Source: Thermoplasmatota archaeon
GTDB taxonomy: Archaea; Thermoplasmatota; Thermoplasmata; Halarchaeoplasmatales; Halarchaeoplasmataceae
Direction of reading: 5' to 3'
Length of the DNA: 32,878 bases
Assembly: GCA_018334835.1 (NCBI GenBank)
Contig: JAGXLF010000001.1
Coordinates: 1-32,878, forward strand
Shown here one piece after another: positions 2,814 through 32,878 of the stretch. A program made the position numbers and the translations under genes. Within the stretch, counting starts at the first letter, position 1, and each line of letters starts with the position of its first letter. Under the pieces are notes generated by a model. The model did no database searches. It saw nothing but the letters and a program-made list of their open reading frames with translations, and was not told the origin of the DNA.

Positions 2814-3818
2814 ATGATTAGAGCCGATGGTAAGGATACCAGAGGAGGCGAAGGAGATAAAAGAACTACTTCTGAGATTGAAGTCTCTTCTCTCAATAAA
2901 TCGGTTCGAGATGTCATAGAAGACTTGGAAAGTGACCATGAAGTTTATGGAGATGAGACAGTTAAAAGGGCTACTCTAAAGTGTTTAAAACATCTTCAAG
3001 ATAAAAAAGAATTGTCTCACAAAGAATTGAAGATGAGTATATATCTCGATTTTTTAGATAACCCAACATTAGATTTAGAAAAAGGAATGGGAGTAGATTT
3101 TAAGGGACCTCAAAAAGAAGATCTTTGGGAGATGGGCAAGACAGGTCTAGATTATCTCGAAGAGAAAACTAGCCTTGTTGAAAGTTCCATAGACGAAAAG
3201 GGTAGAAGATATAGATGGAAAACTGACGGAGCTGAGACGATGTCCTTAGAAGAGAGAGATTTAGAGGACAAACCGCTTGAAGATTTGGATAAACAAATCT
3301 TGATCGAGAGTGGAAAACAATTCCTAAACACAATCTATGGCGAAAAAGAGAAAGAAGAAAAGCCCGTATTGGAAAAAGGAGAAAGTTACCTTACTAAAGA
3401 TAAAAAACCAAAAAAAAGCTTAGAGTTTTCTCTGAAAAAGATGGAAAAAGAAGGAAAAGGGTATGTCTTGAGCAGTATAAATCCAGATAAGATCAATAGA
3501 AAATACGAGGTCAATGAAGATTCGATTTCATTCAATTGGCTCACAGGTCTTGAGGGAAAAAATAGATTTAAACCATCTAACCTTCACCTGATCGCACACA
3601 GTATGATCAATTTTCTAGAAGATAAAAACGGACCAATTTTTATTGGAGGGGTAGAGATCATTTTAAAACACAATTCCTTCGATAGATTTTTGGGTTTTTT
3701 AAACCACCTTGTAGATGTTGTTTCTGAAGAAAATGGAATCTTGGTTCTCAGTCTAGATCCTAGAATACTTTCTGATCAGCAGCTAGCTAAGATAGAGAGA
3801 AAATTTGAATATCTTTAA
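2814..3818 (+). CDS. DUF835-like domain protein with charged N-terminal region
   Basis: C-terminal YVLSSINPDKI...PSNLHLIAHSMINFLEDKNGPIFIGGVEIILKHNSFDRFLGFLNHLVDVVSEENGILVLSLDPRILSDQQLAKIERKFEYL matches the DUF835 pattern (hxxGhEYLhxxNxFxxhLxFLxxLxDxVxxxxxxhhhxhDPxxLxxxxLxxLER). Confidence 0.7.
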   Translation: MIRADGKDTRGGEGDKRTTSEIEVSSLNKSVRDVIEDLESDHEVYGDETVKRATLKCLKHLQDKKELSHKELKMSIYLDFLDNPTLDLEKGMGVDFKGPQKEDLWEMGKTGLDYLEEKTSLVESSIDEKGRRYRWKTDGAETMSLEERDLEDKPLEDLDKQILIESGKQFLNTIYGEKEKEEKPVLEKGESYLTKDKKPKKSLEFSLKKMEKEGKGYVLSSINPDKINRKYEVNEDSISFNWLTGLEGKNRFKPSNLHLIAHSMINFLEDKNGPIFIGGVEIILKHNSFDRFLGFLNHLVDVVSEENGILVLSLDPRILSDQQLAKIERKFEYL

Positions 3819-3907
3819 ATTTCTTAAATGAGTTGGAAAATAAAGATAAAAGATTTACTAGGGGTGAGGAAAATAACGAATCCTACTACTACTCAACATT
3901 TTGATAG

Positions 3908-4004
3908 TGCTCCCGGGGGGATTCGAACCCCCGTAATCGGCTATCCCTGGCCTTGCATCGGCCTCGAAAGGCCGAGATGATTGGCCGGACTACACCACAG
4001 GAGC
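3908..4004 (-). tRNA. tRNA-Glu (anticodon TTC) with a 22-nt intron at position 37/38 (intron about 3943..3964)
   Basis: Minus strand: GCTCCTG acceptor pairs with CGGGAGC, then discriminator A; T-arm GGGGG-TTCGAAT-CCCCC; anticodon stem TCGGC/GCCGA with loop CTTTCG|A interrupted by AGGCCGATGCAAGGCCAGGGAT. No CCA encoded. Confidence 0.93.
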
Positions 4005-11012: not shown

Positions 11013-14000
11013 TTAGTCTTCCCCATTTTCTTCATTTTCATCCTCACTTCTTTTTCTCTTGAACTCACTTTTTTCTACTTCTTCTAACAGTTCTTTTAAA
11101 ACTCCTTGAGTTTTTTGTAGATCTTCGAAATCTCCACTCTTCCTTATCTCTTCTGCCTTCTTTTCTAATTTTAATTCCCTTTTCTCTAATTCCCCTTCTC
11201 TTTCCTCCAACTCATTTTCCCATTCCTGTAAGGAATCTTCTTTTCCATCTAATTCATCTTCCAAAGATTGGAGTTCGCCTTCTTTTTCTTCCAAGTCATC
11301 TTTTCTGCTTTCCAATTTTTCTTCAAGCTCCTTTAGTTCGGATTCTTTTCCCTGCAGCTCTTCTTCTTTTTCGCCGAGTTCTTCTTCGAGAGATTGGAGT
11401 TCGTTTTCTTTTTCCTCTAGATTTTCTTTTCTATTTTCGATATCGCTCACTAGTTCATCCAATTCTTCCTCTTTCTCTTGGACTTGTTCTTCTTTATCTT
11501 TTAGTTCTTTCTCAAGTGACTCGACCTCAGTTTTTTTATCATCGACTTTACTATCGAGCACCTCTAATTGTTCTTCTTTATCTCCTAATTTATCTTTCAA
11601 AGACTCGAGTTCGTTTTCTTTTTCTTCTAAGTTCTCTTTTCTACTTTCCAGTTCTTCTTCAATATTGTCTAACGCAGATTCTTTTTCTTGTATTTGATCG
11701 TCTTTTTCATCTATTTCTTCTTCTAGTGACTTTAATTCATTTTCTTTCTCATCTAAGTCGTCCATCTTGGTTTCAATATCACTTTCTAATTCTTCCAAAC
11801 GGTCTTCTTTTTCATCGAGTTCCTCGGCTAGCGATTGTAATTCGTTTTCCTTTTCCTCTAAATTGTCTTTTCTATTTTTGATGTCGCTTTCTAGTTCATC
11901 CAACACTTCCTCTTTTTCTTGTATTTGATACTCTTTATCGCTGAGTTCTTCTTCGAGAGATTGGAGTTCATTTTCTTTCTCATCCAGATTTTCTTTTCTA
12001 CTTTCCATTTCATCTTCGATCTCATTCAGTTCTCCCTCTTTATCCTGTAGATGTTCATCTTTCTCACTAAGTTCTTCTTCGAGAGATTGCAATTCATTTT
12101 CCTTTTCGTCTAAACTTTCTTTTTTACCTTCTAGTTTAGATTCGAGTTCTTTCAGTTCTACCTTTTTTTCCTGGACCTGTTTTTCCTTATCGTTAACTTC
12201 ACCCTCTAAAGATTGTAGTTCGTTTTCTTTCTCCTCTAACGTATCCTTTCTATTTTCGATGTCACTTTCCAGTTCATCTAATTTTTCTTCTTTTTCTTGT
12301 ATTTGATCCTCTTTACCATTTAGTTCATCTTCTAGTGATTGCAGTTCATTTTCTTTTTCAGTTAATGTCTCCTTTTTATCTTCAATTTCATCTTCTAAAT
12401 CTACCAATTCCCTCTCTTTTCCTTCCAATTGTTCCTTTCTTTCTTCTAGTTTCTCTTTAAGTTCATTCAATTCATCTTCTTTTTTCTGTAGCTCCTCATC
12501 TTTCTTTTCCAGTTCTTCTTCCAGAGACTTTAATTCATTTTCCTTCTCATTGAGGTCGGTTTTTCTACTTTCTAGTTCCTCTTCGAGTTCGTTTAGTTCA
12601 CCTTCTTTATCCTGCAGTTGTTCATCTCTCTTTTCCAATTCTTCCTCTAGAGACTGTAATTCCTTTTCCTTCTCCTCTAGATTTTCTTTTCTACTTTCGA
12701 TATCGTCTTCAAGCTCATTCAATTCAGTTTCTTTTTCCTCTAGCTGATCATCTTTTTCTTTGAGTTCTTCTTCGAGAGATTGTAGTTCATTTTCCTTCTC
12801 CTCTAGACTTTCTTTTCTACTTTCGATATCCTCTTCAAGTTCCTTCAGTTCTTCCTCTTTTTCCTGCAGTTTTTCATCTTTCTCACTAAGTTCTTCTTGG
12901 AGAGACTGAAGTTCGTTTTCTTTCTCATCCAAACTTTCTTTTCTACTTTCGATATCCTCTTTTAATTCCTTCAATTCAGTTTCTTTCTCCTCAAGTTGTT
13001 CTTCCTTATCACCCAGTTCGTCTTCGAGGGATTTTAGTTCGTTTTCTTTCTCATCCAAACTTTCTTTTCTACTTTCGATATCCTCTTTTAATTCCTTCAA
13101 TTCAGTTTCTTTTTCTTGGATTTGCGATCTCCTTTCATCTAGTTCGTTTTCGAGGTCAATTAATCCGTTCTCTTTTTCCACGAGATCGGTTTTTAGATCA
13201 TCTAATTCCTGTCTTCTGCTTTCCAATTTCTCCTCCATTTCGTTCAATTCATTTTCTCTATTTTCTATCTCCTCTTTTGTCTTCGTTAACTCTTTCTCTT
13301 TTGCTTCTAACTCTTCTTTTCTTTCTTTCAGTCTATTTTCCTTCTGTTCCAACTCACTTTCCCATCCTTCGTTTTTGACCTCTCTCAAGTCAATATCATT
13401 CTCTCGCTCATCCAACCTGTTTTCCCAATCTTCAAATTCTTTCTGTTTATCGGTCAGTTCATCTTCCATCTCTTCTAGTTCCTTTTTCTTAGTTTGAAGT
13501 TTTACCTCTTGATTCGATAGTTGTTTGTCTCGGCTGTTTAAAACATCCTGGTATGAATCTAGATCATCTTCCCTCTCATTGAGACGGTCCTCCAACTGGG
13601 TAAGAGTTTCCTCCCAACTCTCGATCTCGTTTTCGACCTGACTAAGCCCTTTTTCTTTCTCTTCTAATTTTTCTTCTCTATCGGAAAGAACCGTTTCTCT
13701 TTCGTCGAGTCGATTCTTCCGTTCATCTAATTTTATCTCTTTATCTTGTAGGTCGTCATCTTTCTCTTCGAGTTCCTCTTCCAAGTCCTTCAATTTTGAA
13801 TATTCGTTATCAAGCTCTTGTTCTCTTTCCTCAATAGACTGGCTCCATCTTTCTACGTGTTCTTCCCTCTCCTGGATCTTATCTTCTAGTTCATATAAGA
13901 CTTCCTCTCTTTCATCTAATTTTTCTTCAATTGTCTTTACACGTTTTTCTTTCTTCTGTACTTTCTCTTTCTTATCTTTCAGTTCTTTTTCTAATTCATC

Positions 14001-16130
14001 CAATTCTTCTTTTTTACTATCTAATTCCTTCTCCCTCTCGTCAAGATCGTTCTCTCGTATTTCTATCTCAGAATACCTCTCATCTAGCCCCTCCTCAATG
14101 GTCCCCAATTGTTCCTGCCAAGTATCTAACCTTTCTTCCCTTTCTTCTATGTATTCTTCTAGTTCTTGGATCTTATTAGAGCTTTCTTCTAACTGGTCTT
14201 CATAATCGATCAACTTTTCTTCCCAAACATTAATATCTTCTTTTGTTTCGATCAATATTTCTTCTCTTTCATCTAGCTTTTTCTCCCTCTCCTTAAGATT
14301 GTCTTCTCTGTTATTAAGATCCATTTCCCACCCTTCGAGCTTTGTTTCCTGGATATCCATATTGTACATCTTCCTTGAAACTTCTTTTTCTTTGTCTTCA
14401 AGATTGTTCTCCCAATGTTCTAATTCTTCTTTTATTTCTTCAACAGATTTTTCTCTTTTTTCTAGATCTTTTTCCATCTCTTCAAGGTTTTCTCTTTCGT
14501 TTTCCAATTCATCTTCGTATTTCTCAAGTTCCTTTTTCCTCTCCTCGATCTCACTTTCTTTTTGCTCGAGTTTCTCACTCTTTTCAACGAGTTCTTCATC
14601 TTTTTTGGAAAGATTTTCTTCCCATTCTTCCAATTCAGCCTCTCTAAGGTCCTGTCTTTTTATTCTTTCTTCCAACTCTTTTTCTTTTTGATTTAAAGAT
14701 TCAGAACGTTCATCTAGTTTTTCTTCTCTTTCTTCTAAGTTCGATTCCCATCCCTCTAAAGAATTTTTTTCCTTTTCCAATTCTTCTTCTAGTCCAAACA
14801 AATCATTTTCCCAATTTTCCAGTTCATTTTTAGTCTCGATTATCTCCGACTCTCTGTTTTTCAATTCCTCTTTTTCATTCTCAATATCGTCTTTAGTTTC
14901 CTCAAGTTGCTCCTCCCATCCTTCTAAATTGGTTTCTTGCATGCCCAATTTCATATCTTTTTTCTCTAGATATTCTTCGAAATCCTCTAATTCCTTTTCT
15001 TTTTCTTTTACCGTTTCTTCCCATTCTTTTATTTCTTCTTCTTTTCCCTCTTGTTCCTTTTCTTTTTCTTCCAATTCCTGCTGTTTTTCCTTGGTTTTCC
15101 CTTTCTCTTCTTCCAATTCCTGTTCGATATCTTCTATTTCCGCTTCTCTTTGTTCTAATCTCCTTCGCTTTCCCTGTAAAGTATTCTTTTCGGATTCGAT
15201 CTCTTCCCTCATCTCTTTGAGACTCTTTCTCTTCTGTTCTTTTTCTGCTAATCCAGATTTTAATTTTTTTTCTTGTTTTCCGATACTTTTCTTAATTTGC
15301 TCTAGACTTTCTTCCCTCTTTTGCAGTTTTTTTTCCTGTTCTTTGATCTTTTGTTCTTTTTCTTTTATCTCATCTTTTTTTCTTTCTAACAACTCTTTTT
15401 CCTTTTCTATATCTTCTCTTTTTGGCTTTTTCATCTCAGATTGTTTTCTCTTGAGTTTTCTTTCTCGCTCTTCAAGTTCCTGTTCGAACTGTTTCAGTTT
15501 ATTTTCTTTATTTTCAAGATCTTTTTCCTTTTTCAATAGTTTTTCTAGTAACTCATTTATTTCTTCTAAATTAGCATCCGAATCTGTTTTCCCTTCATTC
15601 AAGTCTTGAATATCGACTTTATTTTCTTTGATTAATTCTTTAACAGATTTTTCCTTTTTCACATCTAGAGCCTCAGATTCCTCACTAGGGTGGTCTTTTT
15701 TTCTTTCGTACTCTATCCCGCTCTCTAGTCTTTCATGGCTACTAGTACCCAACTCCAAAATCAGATCGATGTCGATATTATCAGTGATTTTACAATCTTC
15801 GAACTTGGAGATGATCTGGTCCACATAAAAATTTGGGGTGGAATGGGAATAGGAATAAAGCTCTATGATGTTTTCGTCGTTCGAGGAGAGCTCAGCTATT
15901 TCAGTTAACGCTTCTCTTCCCTGATATCTTTTCTCAGTTTTTTCAACCTCAGCAGCCACAGGGCTAGCATTTTTAAAAACGATTTTACCTTCATATTCAA
16001 AGCCCCCCTCCTCATGGATGAGTTTCATGTATCCATCGATATTTTGTCTCTTTGACTCATCGATCAGCTTTTTTAAAGGTTCATCACCTCCTAAAGAGTG
16101 CAATATCCTTTTACCGGCCGGTATTTCCAT
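11013..16130 (-). CDS. Giant (about 1,705 aa) heptad-repeat/coiled-coil protein with N-terminal globular domain
   Basis: Open frame to 16166. ATG at 16130 is preferred because it has an SD (aaggaggagtttcaccATG). N-terminal GYMKLIHEEGGFEYEGKIVFKNASPVAAEVEKTEKRYQGREALTEIAEL, then about 1,500 residues of E/K/L/R-rich heptads ending in a charged tail. Confidence 0.92.
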   Translation of the reverse strand: MEIPAGKRILHSLGGDEPLKKLIDESKRQNIDGYMKLIHEEGGFEYEGKIVFKNASPVAAEVEKTEKRYQGREALTEIAELSSNDENIIELYSYSHSTPNFYVDQIISKFEDCKITDNIDIDLILELGTSSHERLESGIEYERKKDHPSEESEALDVKKEKSVKELIKENKVDIQDLNEGKTDSDANLEEINELLEKLLKKEKDLENKENKLKQFEQELEERERKLKRKQSEMKKPKREDIEKEKELLERKKDEIKEKEQKIKEQEKKLQKREESLEQIKKSIGKQEKKLKSGLAEKEQKRKSLKEMREEIESEKNTLQGKRRRLEQREAEIEDIEQELEEEKGKTKEKQQELEEKEKEQEGKEEEIKEWEETVKEKEKELEDFEEYLEKKDMKLGMQETNLEGWEEQLEETKDDIENEKEELKNRESEIIETKNELENWENDLFGLEEELEKEKNSLEGWESNLEEREEKLDERSESLNQKEKELEERIKRQDLREAELEEWEENLSKKDEELVEKSEKLEQKESEIEERKKELEKYEDELENERENLEEMEKDLEKREKSVEEIKEELEHWENNLEDKEKEVSRKMYNMDIQETKLEGWEMDLNNREDNLKEREKKLDEREEILIETKEDINVWEEKLIDYEDQLEESSNKIQELEEYIEEREERLDTWQEQLGTIEEGLDERYSEIEIRENDLDEREKELDSKKEELDELEKELKDKKEKVQKKEKRVKTIEEKLDEREEVLYELEDKIQEREEHVERWSQSIEEREQELDNEYSKLKDLEEELEEKDDDLQDKEIKLDERKNRLDERETVLSDREEKLEEKEKGLSQVENEIESWEETLTQLEDRLNEREDDLDSYQDVLNSRDKQLSNQEVKLQTKKKELEEMEDELTDKQKEFEDWENRLDERENDIDLREVKNEGWESELEQKENRLKERKEELEAKEKELTKTKEEIENRENELNEMEEKLESRRQELDDLKTDLVEKENGLIDLENELDERRSQIQEKETELKELKEDIESRKESLDEKENELKSLEDELGDKEEQLEEKETELKELKEDIESRKESLDEKENELQSLQEELSEKDEKLQEKEEELKELEEDIESRKESLEEKENELQSLEEELKEKDDQLEEKETELNELEDDIESRKENLEEKEKELQSLEEELEKRDEQLQDKEGELNELEEELESRKTDLNEKENELKSLEEELEKKDEELQKKEDELNELKEKLEERKEQLEGKERELVDLEDEIEDKKETLTEKENELQSLEDELNGKEDQIQEKEEKLDELESDIENRKDTLEEKENELQSLEGEVNDKEKQVQEKKVELKELESKLEGKKESLDEKENELQSLEEELSEKDEHLQDKEGELNEIEDEMESRKENLDEKENELQSLEEELSDKEYQIQEKEEVLDELESDIKNRKDNLEEKENELQSLAEELDEKEDRLEELESDIETKMDDLDEKENELKSLEEEIDEKDDQIQEKESALDNIEEELESRKENLEEKENELESLKDKLGDKEEQLEVLDSKVDDKKTEVESLEKELKDKEEQVQEKEEELDELVSDIENRKENLEEKENELQSLEEELGEKEEELQGKESELKELEEKLESRKDDLEEKEGELQSLEDELDGKEDSLQEWENELEEREGELEKRELKLEKKAEEIRKSGDFEDLQKTQGVLKELLEEVEKSEFKRKRSEDENEENGED
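11215..13130 (-). repeat. Tandem about 42-aa (126-bp) coding repeats in the C-terminal part of the giant protein
   Basis: Recurring unit EKENELQSLEEELSEKDEKLQEKEEELKELEEDIESRKESLE, about fifteen degenerate copies, some shortened by one heptad. Confidence 0.85.
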
Positions 16131-16255
16131 GGTGAAACTCCTCCTTGCTTCTCGAGATATTCTCACCTTATATGAATAGACCTAATCATATAGAAGTTTC
16201 GGTTGATTTCCAGATGTAAAGGTGTAATAAAAAATGAAAAAACCTTTTAGAACTT

Positions 16256-27087: not shown

Positions 27088-28602
27088 TCATATATTCTTT
27101 ATATCTGGATGGGTTTCAAGGATCATCCCCTCGACTTTTAGTGGTTTTAGATGATTAGCGAGGTCTATAGCCTCCTTCAACTTCGATTTGTATTCCGAGT
27201 AGATCGTGTATTTCTGCTCGTCAATTTCCACTTTATCTCCTTTTTTCTTGTTTAACATTATCCCTGCCTTTTTGCTGTTCGGTCCCCCAGCGGCTCTCAC
27301 TATTTTGATTATCTCATCATTGTTTATACTGTCTACATACCCCTCTTCATCCGAATATATTTTCTTTGAATGTTTTCCTATCTCGATGTCTTCTGAACTT
27401 ATTTCAGGATCGCCACGCTGCCTCTCTATTATCTGTTTCATTTTTTCTAGAGCTTCGCCGCTTTCTAAGAGTTTTTTTGCCTCTTCCTTTCCATCTCTTA
27501 TTCCTCCTTTTTCGAGCACCATCCCTGCTAGAGTGGTAGATTTTTCTATCAAACTTGATGGTACTTCTTTTCCTTCAAGAGCCATCAAGGCTTCTTTTGC
27601 TTCGATAGCAGGTCCTATAGTATTTCCTATAGGTTGTCCTCCGTAACTCAGAGCACATGAGGTTTCAATCCCTATATCCTCACTAAGAGAAACAAAATCT
27701 CGCGCATATTTTCGACCGAGTTCTATGTTTTCGACCTTCGTGTTCGCACCCACTGGAATATCCATCACGAGGTATTCCGCTCCAGCTGATTTCTTCTTCG
27801 AGAGCACAGAAGCTAGGACCTGCGGGTACGGATCTATCCTCAATGGATATTCTGCTCTTATTATCATATCGTCGCTGGGAGCTAGATTCACCGCTCCTCC
27901 CCAGGCGATCGTACCTCCGACATCCTCTGCTATCTCTTTGATTTCACCTATACTGAGATCTACCTCGGCTAGAGTTTCAAATATATCTGCGGTGCCGCCA
28001 GCACTCGATATAGCTCGGGAACTTGTTTTAGGTATCATCAATCCTGCGGAAGCTACGATCGGAACGATCAGCAGAGTTATCTTGTTGCCCGGTACCCCTC
28101 CTATGCTATGATGGTCAAAGACTGGATGCCTGTCATATTCGATTGTGTCACCTGTTTCTATCATGGCATTGATAAGATATTTTATTTCGCGGTTGTTCAT
28201 ACCCTGGGAATATATCCCTGAAACATAAGCGGATAATTCAATATCGGAAAGGCGTTTATTAACTATATCTTGGATTATCTCCCTTATCCCGTGTTCTGAA
28301 AGTTCTTGTCCATCTAATTTTTCTTTTATATGCTCTACAGATTCCGGCTTTCCGGTCGGTTTGATCGTAACGATAGAGCCCTCTTCTACCTCGAGAAATT
28401 CCATCACATTCTCTACAAGGCCGATATCACCTTTCTCTACGAGGCTCTTTGATGTTTCGACTATCGTGGTACAGGTATTCTCTCCATGGTTCACATTCAC
28501 CCTATCCTGACTTCTAAGCCCTATATCTTCTGCATCTGCGCTATTCAAGATGACCAGCTGGTCCCGTGCTTCGATATCAATTTTTTTTGCCTTGAGCTCC
28601 AT
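27088..28602 (-). CDS. deoA: AMP phosphorylase
   Basis: VFDHHSIGGVPGNKITLLIVPIVASAGLMIPKTSSRAISSAGGTADIFETLAEVDLS; AMP-phosphorylase-type N-terminal domain; next to rbcL and e2b2. Confidence 0.95.
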   Translation of the reverse strand: MELKAKKIDIEARDQLVILNSADAEDIGLRSQDRVNVNHGENTCTTIVETSKSLVEKGDIGLVENVMEFLEVEEGSIVTIKPTGKPESVEHIKEKLDGQELSEHGIREIIQDIVNKRLSDIELSAYVSGIYSQGMNNREIKYLINAMIETGDTIEYDRHPVFDHHSIGGVPGNKITLLIVPIVASAGLMIPKTSSRAISSAGGTADIFETLAEVDLSIGEIKEIAEDVGGTIAWGGAVNLAPSDDMIIRAEYPLRIDPYPQVLASVLSKKKSAGAEYLVMDIPVGANTKVENIELGRKYARDFVSLSEDIGIETSCALSYGGQPIGNTIGPAIEAKEALMALEGKEVPSSLIEKSTTLAGMVLEKGGIRDGKEEAKKLLESGEALEKMKQIIERQRGDPEISSEDIEIGKHSKKIYSDEEGYVDSINNDEIIKIVRAAGGPNSKKAGIMLNKKKGDKVEIDEQKYTIYSEYKSKLKEAIDLANHLKPLKVEGMILETHPDIKNI

Positions 28603-28608
28603 AATAGA

Positions 28609-29838
28609 TCACATCCATTTCTCCAATGCTTTTCTTAATTCCCGATGTTTTTCTGCATATTCTTTCAGATCGACACCTTCAGAGACAGCATCCACTGCTT
28701 GTCTCAGCGCTTTAGCTCCAGATCTAACCCCATCCGGATGTCCAGATACACCACCACCAGCTTGTATCTGAACTTCCATACCGCTCATCTTTATCAGTTC
28801 TGGTACCAGCCCCGGATGCAGTCCTCCACTCGCAACCGGCATCAATTTTGGAAGACCATGCATATCTCCTAGAAGTGTCTCTTTGCATTTGAGTTCTTCA
28901 TCTACCTCTGCATGCATCTTTCCTGTTCCATAGGTCCCTATATGGAGAGCGTCTCCACCTGCCATCCTGACTATCTTCGAAATGACTGACATTGATATGC
29001 CATGGTGGGGATTTTTTGTTATCGCCCCGTGCATGGCTCTGTGTACGTGTATCGGCACATCAACTGAAGGGTCTTCTGCTAGCGCCTGAAGGCCAGAAAA
29101 TCCAACAGTTAACACGTCTATCATCAACTGTCTAGCTCCGTTTTCTAAAGCGAGATCGGCGGCTTCCAATATCTTATGAGAAGTGGTGCTTATATTATGT
29201 GCATGGATCATCTTGTATCCCTCCTCTTCAAGTATATCTAGCTTTTCGCTGACTTCACTCACTCTCTCTTCGAGCGGACAAAAGTCTTGATCCACCAATG
29301 TTTCATCATCTTTAGAGTTGGTGAGTCCCCCTCTTCCAGCCTGATATACATAATCTGCGAACTCTTTTGGTGGTAGACCTATTTTCGGTTTAACGATGGT
29401 TCCGACAAGAGGCTTCTCGGGTCTATCTAAAATATTTCGTAGTCTGGTTATTCCGAACTGTGGCCCTGGATATTGTTTTACAATCTCCGAGGGGAGCTCT
29501 AATTGTACAAGCCTGACCCCTTCTAGTGACTCCAGCCCGAAAAGGTTACCGGCGATGATACTCAGGATCTGCGGTATTCCTCCTATATCGCCGGAGAAAT
29601 CAATGACTGGATAGCCTATCCTGACTCTATTTCCCTGTGCTTTTGTGACTTTCGCACCATAATTTTTGAAAATATCCTCTGAAAGCGTTGTAGGATGGGT
29701 CCAAGTCCCCGTTGATTCTTCTTCTGCTATCCTCTTTCCTGCGGTTTTTATATTCAAGTCACTCTTAACGGTGTATTCACATATTATGTAGTCCTCTTGA
29801 TCTAGTTCTTCATCCAAGGCAAGATAATCTATACTCAT
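28609..29838 (-). CDS. rbcL: Ribulose-bisphosphate carboxylase, archaeal form III
   Basis: EEESTGTWT, AGNLFGLESLEGVRL, GTIVKPKIGL, GGLTNSKDDETL, PIHVHRAMHGA, GGDALHIGTYGTGKM, PVASGGLHPG, QAGGGVSGHPDG. Confidence 0.95.
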   Translation of the reverse strand: MSIDYLALDEELDQEDYIICEYTVKSDLNIKTAGKRIAEEESTGTWTHPTTLSEDIFKNYGAKVTKAQGNRVRIGYPVIDFSGDIGGIPQILSIIAGNLFGLESLEGVRLVQLELPSEIVKQYPGPQFGITRLRNILDRPEKPLVGTIVKPKIGLPPKEFADYVYQAGRGGLTNSKDDETLVDQDFCPLEERVSEVSEKLDILEEEGYKMIHAHNISTTSHKILEAADLALENGARQLMIDVLTVGFSGLQALAEDPSVDVPIHVHRAMHGAITKNPHHGISMSVISKIVRMAGGDALHIGTYGTGKMHAEVDEELKCKETLLGDMHGLPKLMPVASGGLHPGLVPELIKMSGMEVQIQAGGGVSGHPDGVRSGAKALRQAVDAVSEGVDLKEYAEKHRELRKALEKWM

Positions 29839-30752
29839 TCTTCCATCTCCTTTATTATCCTATATGCCCCATCAGGGGAGATCACGCCTTTTTCAGTTAT
29901 GATAGAATCTACGTATTTAGAAGGTGTCGCATCAAAAACGGGATTGTTTATATTCACCTCAGGAAAATCAGCTGGATCGACTATCTCTGACGGATCGCGT
30001 TCTTCGATCTCGACCAGCTCTCCGAATGTAGTCTTGTTTGAAAACTTGTAGGTTTCGGCACAAACTGTTAACGGGACTCTACTCTCGTGAGCACATAGAG
30101 CGACCTGGGAGGTCCCGATCTTGTTTATCACGGCTCCATTAGAAGCTACAGTATCGGCGCCAACATATACTTTATCGACGCCCCTCATCTTATATCTCAC
30201 CGCGGAATCGACTATAAGCGTAACTGGTATCCCGTATTCAGAGAGTTCTTTGATGGTGATGTATCCTTGTCTTTTTGGTCTTGACTCTGTCGCTATCACC
30301 TCTATGTTTTTTCCCTCGTCCCAGGAATATTTTATTGCTCCTATAGCCATGGAACTGTTACAGTGGGTAAGAATCACATCTCCGTCGGTTATCCTTTTCC
30401 CTCCATATTCAGCGATCTTATCTTTTGCTTCAAGCGATTTCTCTATGAATCTTGATGCTCTATTAACTATTTCTTTCTTCAATCCCTCTACTCCTTCAGA
30501 TTCGACCGTCATAACGTAATTTATTGCATTTTCCAAGGAAACCGCGGTGGGTCTAGTCGAGCGTAGTCTTTTCGCGCCTTTCTCGAGCTCTGATTCAAGA
30601 TCTTCAACGTCGTCTCCATCATAATTCTCGACGAGTCTTTTTAGAGCTAAGGCTCCAGCCCTAGCTATCTTTGCAGCTCCTCTTATCTCCATATTTTGGA
30701 TCTTCTTGGCTATATCCTCTAGATCGTCACCCTCTAGTTCATCTAGATCCAT
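29835..30752 (-). CDS. e2b2: Ribose-1,5-bisphosphate isomerase (eIF2B-like)
   Basis: IRGAAKIARAGALALKRL, SLENAINYVM, ILTHCNSSMAIGAIKY, ESRPKRQGYITIKELSEYGIPVTLIVDSAV, KVYVGADTVASNGAVINKIGTSQVAL; ATGA overlap with rbcL. Confidence 0.95.
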   Translation of the reverse strand: MDLDELEGDDLEDIAKKIQNMEIRGAAKIARAGALALKRLVENYDGDDVEDLESELEKGAKRLRSTRPTAVSLENAINYVMTVESEGVEGLKKEIVNRASRFIEKSLEAKDKIAEYGGKRITDGDVILTHCNSSMAIGAIKYSWDEGKNIEVIATESRPKRQGYITIKELSEYGIPVTLIVDSAVRYKMRGVDKVYVGADTVASNGAVINKIGTSQVALCAHESRVPLTVCAETYKFSNKTTFGELVEIEERDPSEIVDPADFPEVNINNPVFDATPSKYVDSIITEKGVISPDGAYRIIKEMEE

Positions 30753-30802: not shown

Positions 30803-31438
30803 TCATAAAAAATCCAATAAAAGACTAAGGTCTTTCTCTTCTATGATAATATCAGATGCCTCTTTTACCTTTTTATCGGCTGGGTTGAAAGCTATCCCCG
30901 TACCTGCTTTTTTTAACATGGGGGCATCGATATGGCTATTTCCGATAGCTACTGTTTCTTTCTCCTCAAAATTCATCTCTGATAATAGTCTATCAAAAGC
31001 CTTACCTTTGTTTTTCAGTTCAACTTCTAAAATGCCTTCCCCTGTTAATCTACCATTTTTTTCTTTAAGATCGTTAGCCATAATCATATCGAAATAACTT
31101 TTTCCGATATATTCTGCGAGGGGTTTTAGCCCTCCACTTATAATCGCTGTCTCGTATCTTTCGCTGAGAACGGGGATACAATTTTGAAAACCGTCTATCA
31201 AAGGCACGTCTTTCAGTATTTCTACGATATCATCTCTGGAAATGTATCTATTAGTTCTTTTCCAAAGCTTAATATCCTTTTTCATGAAGTCCAAATCATC
31301 TATTTTACCATCCATAAAGGCCTTCAAAGAATCCTCATTATTTGTCCCAAAGTGTTCATGGACCCAGGCCCATGAACTGTGAACATCTACGAGTACTCCG
31401 TCCATATCAAAAACTACAAGTTCGGGTTTAGAGGTCAT
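30803..31438 (-). CDS. HAD-superfamily phosphatase (phosphoserine phosphatase-like)
   Basis: VVFDMDGVLVDVHSSW (DxDG), AIISGGLKPLAEYIG, KGKAFDRLLSEMNFEEKETVAIGNSHIDAPMLKKAGTGIAFNP. Confidence 0.88.
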   Translation of the reverse strand: MTSKPELVVFDMDGVLVDVHSSWAWVHEHFGTNNEDSLKAFMDGKIDDLDFMKKDIKLWKRTNRYISRDDIVEILKDVPLIDGFQNCIPVLSERYETAIISGGLKPLAEYIGKSYFDMIMANDLKEKNGRLTGEGILEVELKNKGKAFDRLLSEMNFEEKETVAIGNSHIDAPMLKKAGTGIAFNPADKKVKEASDIIIEEKDLSLLLDFL

Positions 31439-32878
31439 GTATTCTCAACGATCCTTTCCATCTCTTCTTTGTAATTTTTCAAAGCTTCAAAGCTTTCTTC
31501 TAGATCGTTTTCTTTTTTCGCTCGATTAGCCTTTTTTAGAAAATCGATCGGTTTGGTCACATCGATATCTTCATCTGCGACGTCTTTGAGTTTTTTCTTA
31601 GCATTTTTTATCTCATCCTTTAGGAAAGATACTAGTTTTTTCTTTATCGTTTCTTGACAAGTCTGGATATGACCTTCAGCCTCGTCCCATTCCTCTTCTT
31701 CGATTTTTTCCTTTGCTTTGTCAAGAGACTTTTTTACTTTCTCGATTTCAAAATCTAAATTTTCAGTGTGGCCGATTATCCTTTCGATTTTGGATATATC
31801 AGCGGAAAATTCGTCTTTAATTTCTTTTTGACTTCTTATACTTTTTTTAGTCTCTTCGATCAGCTCAAAAACTTTTTCGTATTCATTTTTCTCTTTAAGT
31901 TCTTCAACTTTATCTAAAGGAAATTCCTCCTCAAATATATCTTCATCTACGCCTTCTTTCAACGAATCGATTCTTCCTTCTATCTTTTCCTTGGATTTTT
32001 CTAGATAATGTTCTTCTAACTCCTCCAACTTAGCAAGTCCTTCTTCATAGTCGTTCTCTTTTTTATATCTTTCAGCTTCATCTATCATCTCTTCTCCTTC
32101 ACTCATCGTGATATCGAACTCTTCAGCCCTCTCCAAAACGGACTTCATTTCGGATATCCTTTCCTCTATTTTTTTGTTGAGTTCCCGTGTTTCACCTTCC
32201 TTCCGCTCATACCTTTCCAATCTATCTTGCATATTTTTTATAGACTCTTCTATGATCTCAAAGGCGGCTTCTTCTTCACCTGATTCAATTTTTTTTATTG
32301 TATGGTCTATATCTTCAGTATATTCCCAGGCATCTATTCCCCTTCGTTTTATATCTCCCAAATAGGCGTTTGCCTCTCTGATCTTCTCCGATACTTTAGA
32401 AACATTAGAAGCCGAGTTTAATGCATCTATCACTTTATGAATACTTTTATCTATTTCCCCTTCATTTTTTGCTGATATTCCCCCCTCGATTTTCTCTTCT
32501 ATTCTTTCTATATCTATATCCGATTCGATGCTAGATATCATCTCATTTGCTTCCTTGATCTTTTCTTCTATCAGATCATTCAGCCATTTTTTCTCTTCAA
32601 ATTCGTCTAGCTTTCCTAAAATATCTTTTTGTATATCTTCGGCCCTTTTAGAAGCAACCTGATATTCACCGATCTCACACCCCTCATAAATTTTGTCTAT
32701 CTTTTTTTCCATCTCAGAGACATCTATTTTTTTTGATAGGATACTTAGAAAATTTTCACATTTGTTTATGATCCTCATTATATTTTCTACATGCTCTATT
32801 TTCTTCTGTATTTTATCTGAGACTCTTTCACACTTATCTTCGTCTCCCTCCTCTTGGCCTTCTTTCAATTCACTTAGA
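31435..32878 (-). CDS. Long helical-repeat/coiled-coil protein, 5' end truncated by window edge
   Basis: The ORF track starts at a TTG (32868), but the frame stays open to the edge (...LSELKEGQEEGDEDK...), so the true start probably lies outside. Repeated helical units with A..Y..E.D(Y/L/W)EE patterns (AERYKKENDYEEGLAKLEELE; ANRAKKENDLEESFEALKNYKEE; AKEKIEEEEWDEAEGHIQTCQE). ATG/stop overlap with the HAD gene. Confidence 0.75.
   Translation of the reverse strand, partial: LSELKEGQEEGDEDKCERVSDKIQKKIEHVENIMRIINKCENFLSILSKKIDVSEMEKKIDKIYEGCEIGEYQVASKRAEDIQKDILGKLDEFEEKKWLNDLIEEKIKEANEMISSIESDIDIERIEEKIEGGISAKNEGEIDKSIHKVIDALNSASNVSKVSEKIREANAYLGDIKRRGIDAWEYTEDIDHTIKKIESGEEEAAFEIIEESIKNMQDRLERYERKEGETRELNKKIEERISEMKSVLERAEEFDITMSEGEEMIDEAERYKKENDYEEGLAKLEELEEHYLEKSKEKIEGRIDSLKEGVDEDIFEEEFPLDKVEELKEKNEYEKVFELIEETKKSIRSQKEIKDEFSADISKIERIIGHTENLDFEIEKVKKSLDKAKEKIEEEEWDEAEGHIQTCQETIKKKLVSFLKDEIKNAKKKLKDVADEDIDVTKPIDFLKKANRAKKENDLEESFEALKNYKEEMERIVENT

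Follow-up and report, generated by a model that had tools for sequence, protein, structure and literature searches.

The window, that is, the whole stretch of 32,878 nucleotides that was analyzed, represents 32.9 kb of the 1.7 Mb genome of an uncultured, halophilic archaeon, in 114 contigs with a completeness of about 84%. The relatives bearing names were Thermoplasmata MAGs, including 'Candidatus Halarchaeoplasma', and a salt-in strategy was proposed for the saline-lake archaeal order of the host (PMC11332174). The proteins encoded in the window were acidic, with a median pI of 5.0. On the minus strand, a coding frame of 1,705 aa extended from an ATG at 16130 to a stop codon at 11013, with a strong ribosome-binding site AGGAGGAG (16145-16138) 5' of the ATG; an alternative in-frame GTG at 16166 was the weaker start. 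The original prediction had given the coordinates 11013-16130 and a length of about 1,705 aa, both of which were right, and had not stated the strand. The gene sits between Nudix and GGPPS genes and its neighbors were mostly metabolic. The features of the gene were as follows.

11013..16130, minus strand: complete coding sequence of a putative DUF2226-type head and a giant coiled-coil rod (open frame, AGGAGGAG ribosome-binding site, purifying selection among repeat units)
16138..16145, minus strand: Shine-Dalgarno-like AGGAGGAG, read straight from the sequence
15741..16130, minus strand: globular alpha/beta head, residues 1-130 (AlphaFold2, DUF2226 match, homologues in 123 of 300 class genomes)
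15411..15740, minus strand: charged linker and coil start, residues 131-240, with the register still unfixed and the final proline at 236 (model helix break 231-237)
11127..15410, minus strand: coiled-coil rod of 204 heptads that share a single register, residues 241-1668 (periodicity, register, and coil scoring)
14913..14951, minus strand: KLGxxExxLxxW element, residues 394-406, at a model helix break; it resembles the residue-310 motif of the relatives and is not significant alone
13281..13466, minus strand: segment 889-950 (IDLREVKNEGWESELEQK), common to the congener giant rods with a helix-hairpin-helix head (z 4.8, 4.8, and 2.2)
11187..13202, minus strand: array of about 16 tandem units of 42 residues (126 bp each) in residues 977-1648, detected by Tandem Repeats Finder at period 126
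11013..11126, minus strand: stop codon, preceded by a short and charged C-terminal tail (residues 1669-1705)

Elsewhere in the window, an AMP-pathway set of the kind ordinary in archaea (nucleoside phosphorylase, RuBisCO large chain, and IF-2B-family isomerase) was located at 27088-30752. The tRNA gene at 3907-4004, which scored 46.2 bits with the Rfam tRNA model and was left unassigned by ARAGORN (two-base anticodon), possibly contains an intron. A charged helical-repeat protein was encoded at 31435-32877, and its N-terminus, on the same contig (L154), carried a zinc-ribbon-like CPICDSSLSGEERECPN.

The 204 heptads of residues 241-1668 followed a single register with no slip. The power at the period of 3.5 residues was 86 in residues 191-900 and 133 in residues 901-1640, whereas 200 shuffles gave at most 11, and the power at 3.6 and 3.67 did not exceed 0.5 in either range. 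The non-hydrophobic core residues of the rod were only 297K, 346T, 360Q, 493Q, and 920N. Moreover, 106 heptads in a row had no core exception, the longest chance run being 9 in 300 shuffles. The COILS-type probability, an approximate value, was above 0.9 over residues 191-1668. The long 3.5-residue hydrophobic periodicity of a coiled coil was therefore present, and the near-unbroken heptad pattern that had been described from the sequence was confirmed. If fully helical, the 1,428 residues would measure about 212 nm at 0.1485 nm per residue, and the earlier estimate for such a helix was over 200 nm. The last proline was residue 236, which left a Pro-free stretch of 1,469 residues, and glycine made up about 1.8-1.9% of the rod; the earlier wording 'virtually no Pro or Gly' was thus accurate for proline and overstated for glycine. 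The core position was L, I, or V in at least 93% of the heptads. This regular hydrophobic position had been ascribed to much of the N-terminal half and was found in both halves. The other core position, said to be often K, R, or W, was indeed K or R in 50-64% of the heptads at +3; L or W accounted for much of the remainder. Coil scoring was ambiguous as to whether the core leucine occupies position a or d.

In a single-sequence AlphaFold2 model, residues 191-790 formed four long helices, with breaks near residues 231-237, 396-402, and 593-599. The breaks near 396-402 and 593-599 could be hinges, in which case the protein would not form one straight rod. The Pfam matches of the rod to RNase_Y_N, Exonuc_VII_L, Fez1, and ATG16 were rejected as matches of coiled-coil composition, and NCBIfam gave nothing meaningful on the head or the rod.

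With its extreme charge and one fully hydrophobic position per heptad, the rod might also be read as a charged single alpha-helix serving as a stiff monomeric spacer, and the original prediction had placed it between a coiled coil and such a helix. However, the opposite-charge pairs at i+4 numbered 108 versus 125 ± 8 and 88 versus 96 ± 7 in shuffled sequences, and those at i+3 were likewise at or below the shuffled level, so the enrichment that marks a single alpha-helix was not seen. No 40-residue window scored like the (E4K4)n control, and the hydrophobic stripe at period 3.5 was continuous. The single helix is thus very improbable, and the intermediate description did not hold. The longest coiled coils in prokaryotes are those of SMC, Rad50, SbcC, and MukB, according to a survey of 22 proteomes (PMC1322226). 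The window protein shares with these proteins, or with an S-layer protein, the overall length and coil content only; it differs in having no ATPase head, hinge, zinc hook, signal peptide, or obvious membrane segment, all of which were looked for in the sequence and by Pfam. An SMC/Rad50-like or S-layer protein is hence scarcely credible, in agreement with the earlier view of a giant archaeal heptad rod apart from SMC and Rad50, with no SMC hinge, ATPase head, or transmembrane segment.

The C-terminal part of the rod was repetitive, with a self-identity of 54% at lag 42 in residues 977-1648. The 42-residue unit corresponds to six heptads with a consensus near ESRKESLEEKENELQSLEEELSEKDEQLQEKEGELNELEEDI, and the strongest self-matches all fell at whole-heptad offsets (42, 189, 84, 147, and 126). 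In the five best-matched adjacent in-phase unit pairs, pS was 0.50-0.65 and pN was 0.11-0.25. The lower pN between units therefore supports a frame that is translated and under constraint, part of which is imposed by the coil pattern itself. The rod may have grown by duplication in whole heptads, in 42-residue units, with the hydrophobic stripe kept continuous. Such steps would provide a route to four times the family rod length without breaking the core.

The head, residues 1-130, lies outside the coiled coil and was confidently predicted by AlphaFold2 from 18 sequences to be alpha/beta (pLDDT 90.5, pTM 0.86). Pfam DUF2226 (PF09987) matched residues 1-128 with 24.4 bits against a cut-off of 22, and the match covered only positions 16-98 of 252. 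No DUF2226 match was obtained with a longer query of 193 residues, and the protein was also absent from the output of the whole-genome family search, so the Pfam name is borderline. The homology to other Thermoplasmata heads was clear, with a best E-value of 1.9e-16 and similar values across relatives, and P4, G6, G14, G33, and G48 were invariant in the head profile. A profile search of Thermoplasmata found the head in 123 of 300 class genomes (about 40%), often two per genome. In the PDB, the fold search gave nothing at E ≤ 0.001 (best 0.11, TM < 0.35) and the sequence search gave no match; there was also no match in phage records. The head consensus is similar in its general pattern to the PATAN/DUF4388 domain. 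A link to DUF4388 was not supported, since the DUF4388 profile gave hits in 0 of 150 class genomes and matched 1 of 14 heads at E 0.13. No paper in the literature searched names DUF2226, and the head family behind the giant rod appears to be undescribed.

In congeners, the head also occurred on a DnaA-type ATPase together with DUF835; as judged from these fusions, it behaves as a portable module. The fusion was seen at L111-L114. At L121 and L122, the head occurred without the ATPase, and the C-terminus of L121 was DUF835-like by eye. Proteins of 550-570 aa considered as same-genus orthologues were rejected, as they carry the head on the DnaA-type ATPase and DUF835 and have no coiled coil. Within the window, a DUF835 protein without the head was encoded at 2814-3818. 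The gene beside it (1877-2464) has relatives that, in two congeners, lie next to the head-DnaA-DUF835 gene; the 2814-3818 gene may be a reduced copy. Weaker paralogues that bear the head and measure about 700-790 aa (L115-L124, e.g., L116:4984-8660) were arranged tail to tail with a helical zinc-ribbon protein; thiC was often close by, as were gyrase genes in some families. As heptad coils, these paralogues were rejected by register analysis.

The original prediction called the protein a candidate novel filament or molecular ruler and named no homologues. Relatives do exist, and the head family is widespread in the class. The Thermoplasmata coiled-coil proteins with a DUF2226-type head, on which no publications were found, are mostly 710-830 aa in length and combine a head of this kind (identity of about 23-32%) with a long heptad rod behind it. 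Their rods keep a single register for about 50 heptads; a stutter comes next, usually with about 200-225 further residues, whereas the window rod has 204 heptads and no stutter and lacks their KGALxRKEN element. The longest single-register block was 50 heptads in 10 of 21 head-plus-coil homologues and 47-53 in 20 of them, with 31 heptads in the remaining one, which makes the window protein an outlier. Members in its own archaeal family were 746-771 aa in length, with a norm of about 760 aa, and only 39-67% identical. Between families, the rod identity at zero offset was 0.213 compared to 0.18-0.21 elsewhere, a weak peak that suggests strict colinearity of the blocks of about 50 heptads. The proposed molecular ruler thus gains indirect support from the near-constant block in the relatives, while the window protein itself breaks the length.

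The window protein therefore has the homologous N-terminal head of this family, and its rod does not follow the family pattern of a homologous stretch of about 50 heptads, a stutter, and a C-terminal coil. The likeness of KLGxxExxLxxW was promising for orthology between the rods, but the position-specific profile of the family rod scored 0.0 against a null of 1.2 ± 2.0, and this orthology was rejected. With no position-specific match, a function of the family is therefore not transferable through the rod.

The usual slot of the family gene was flanked by an ArsR-type regulator and argF, and in some genomes an aminotransferase gene was also adjacent. No coiled-coil gene was found in this slot in the host genome or four congeners, nor between the Nudix and GGPPS genes in the four congeners. 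In sister genera, the Nudix/GGPPS slot was occupied by a zinc-ribbon gene plus a 1,296-1,331-aa coiled coil in the same orientation. At these loci (L187:3932-9238, L189:2858-7983, L152:3434-8677, and L153:2589-7831), a zinc-ribbon coiled-coil gene of 407-432 aa was followed by the longer coiled coil, which starts with MGLREK, and three of the four share KGALxRKEN with the DUF2226-head family.

Giant charged rods with a helix-hairpin-helix head were also encoded in the same genus (L185 and L186; truncated in L188 and L199), with 126 and 141 single-register heptads in L185 and L186, respectively. They share an IDLREVKxEGWE segment with the window protein in L185, L186, and L199, and differ in the head and in a C-terminal folded domain that is absent from the window protein. 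The rare-residue test, with 12 shuffles per target and about 45 targets, matched segment 889-950 to these rods, and the site was the same in each of the three congeners (z 4.8, 4.8, and 2.2). The top z of 5.7 (L190) was a single unrepeated match and was set aside, weight being given only to the segment recurring in three congeners; block-shuffled-target alignment scores and diagonal scans did not discriminate between rods and were not used. The congener giants (L185:1885-7587, L186:3491-9487, L188:3-4784, and L199:6440-7783) reach at least 1,998 aa, and their helix-hairpin-helix head, where the N-terminus was visible, was weak. Their C-terminal domain of about 190 aa is also a stand-alone protein across the class, and the L185 giant is interrupted by a TAA. 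The host species also encodes a giant of the helix-hairpin-helix type, cut at a contig edge. In the simplest account, the window protein appears to be a chimera of a Thermoplasmata-family head and a genus-type giant rod.

The architecture of head and rod is well supported. The length could be a non-adaptive expansion, in which a duplicated low-complexity rod is tolerated, the coil extends in heptad steps, and its length has no function. The norm of about 760 aa in the archaeal family of the host, the congeners without the gene at both loci, and the slippage-prone tandem units agree with such an origin. However, the units are far diverged synonymously with the protein conserved (pN well below pS), and the near-flawless register over 204 heptads points to selection, which leaves this account improbable.

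We propose, with about even confidence, that the protein is a cytoplasmic homodimeric tether or scaffold. The 130-residue head would dock a partner, and the 204-heptad rods of two copies would pair; the simplest arrangement would be a parallel two-stranded coiled coil with both heads at the same end. The paired rod could then serve as a tether or scaffold arm with a reach of about 210 nm. At low salt, however, a simple parallel dimer would be weakened by the K or R residues at +3 in the core and by the E residues flanking it.

Such a rod could alternatively be part of a filament-forming cytoskeletal protein, the rods of which would join side by side and end to end to form an intermediate-filament-like network supporting the cell. 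The very long rod with a small head, a short tail, and no obvious membrane segment would suit a filament, as would the presence in each lineage of several giant rods that differ in their heads, and the high-salt cytoplasm proposed for the order (PMC11332174) could screen the strong negative charge. But no assembly motif was identified in the window protein, and the class-wide fixed rod of about 50 heptads resembles a defined spacer more than an open polymer; we regard the filament as unlikely. A scaffold for chromosome organization or segregation, a DNA-linked arm bridging nucleoid sites or DNA and membrane, is doubtful to a greater degree. The rod segment in common with the helix-hairpin-helix giants, one of which belongs to the host species, argues for it, whereas the window protein has no recognized DNA-binding domain or ATPase, has a head that is not known to bind DNA, and lies among mostly metabolic genes.

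Among known systems, the bacterial coiled-coil-rich filament proteins and KfrA-type proteins also have a long coil without an ATPase. The KfrA-type proteins are described as a globular N-terminal head with a long coiled-coil tail (PMC7002697; PMC7821693). The likeness of both groups to the window protein is one of architecture.

For the class as a whole, we tentatively suggest that Thermoplasmata may use register-perfect coiled-coil rods, whose heads can be exchanged (DUF2226-type, helix-hairpin-helix, and others), as spacers of a set length inside the cell, about 52 nm in the family, and that one halophilic lineage moved the head onto a rod of 204 heptads and about 210 nm. The slip-free rod of 1,428 residues is well beyond the other rods measured in the same analysis. 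If the block of about 50 heptads reflects a real cellular distance, it would offer a direct handle on the internal architecture of Thermoplasmata, and the length of the rod and the partners that it connects become testable questions.
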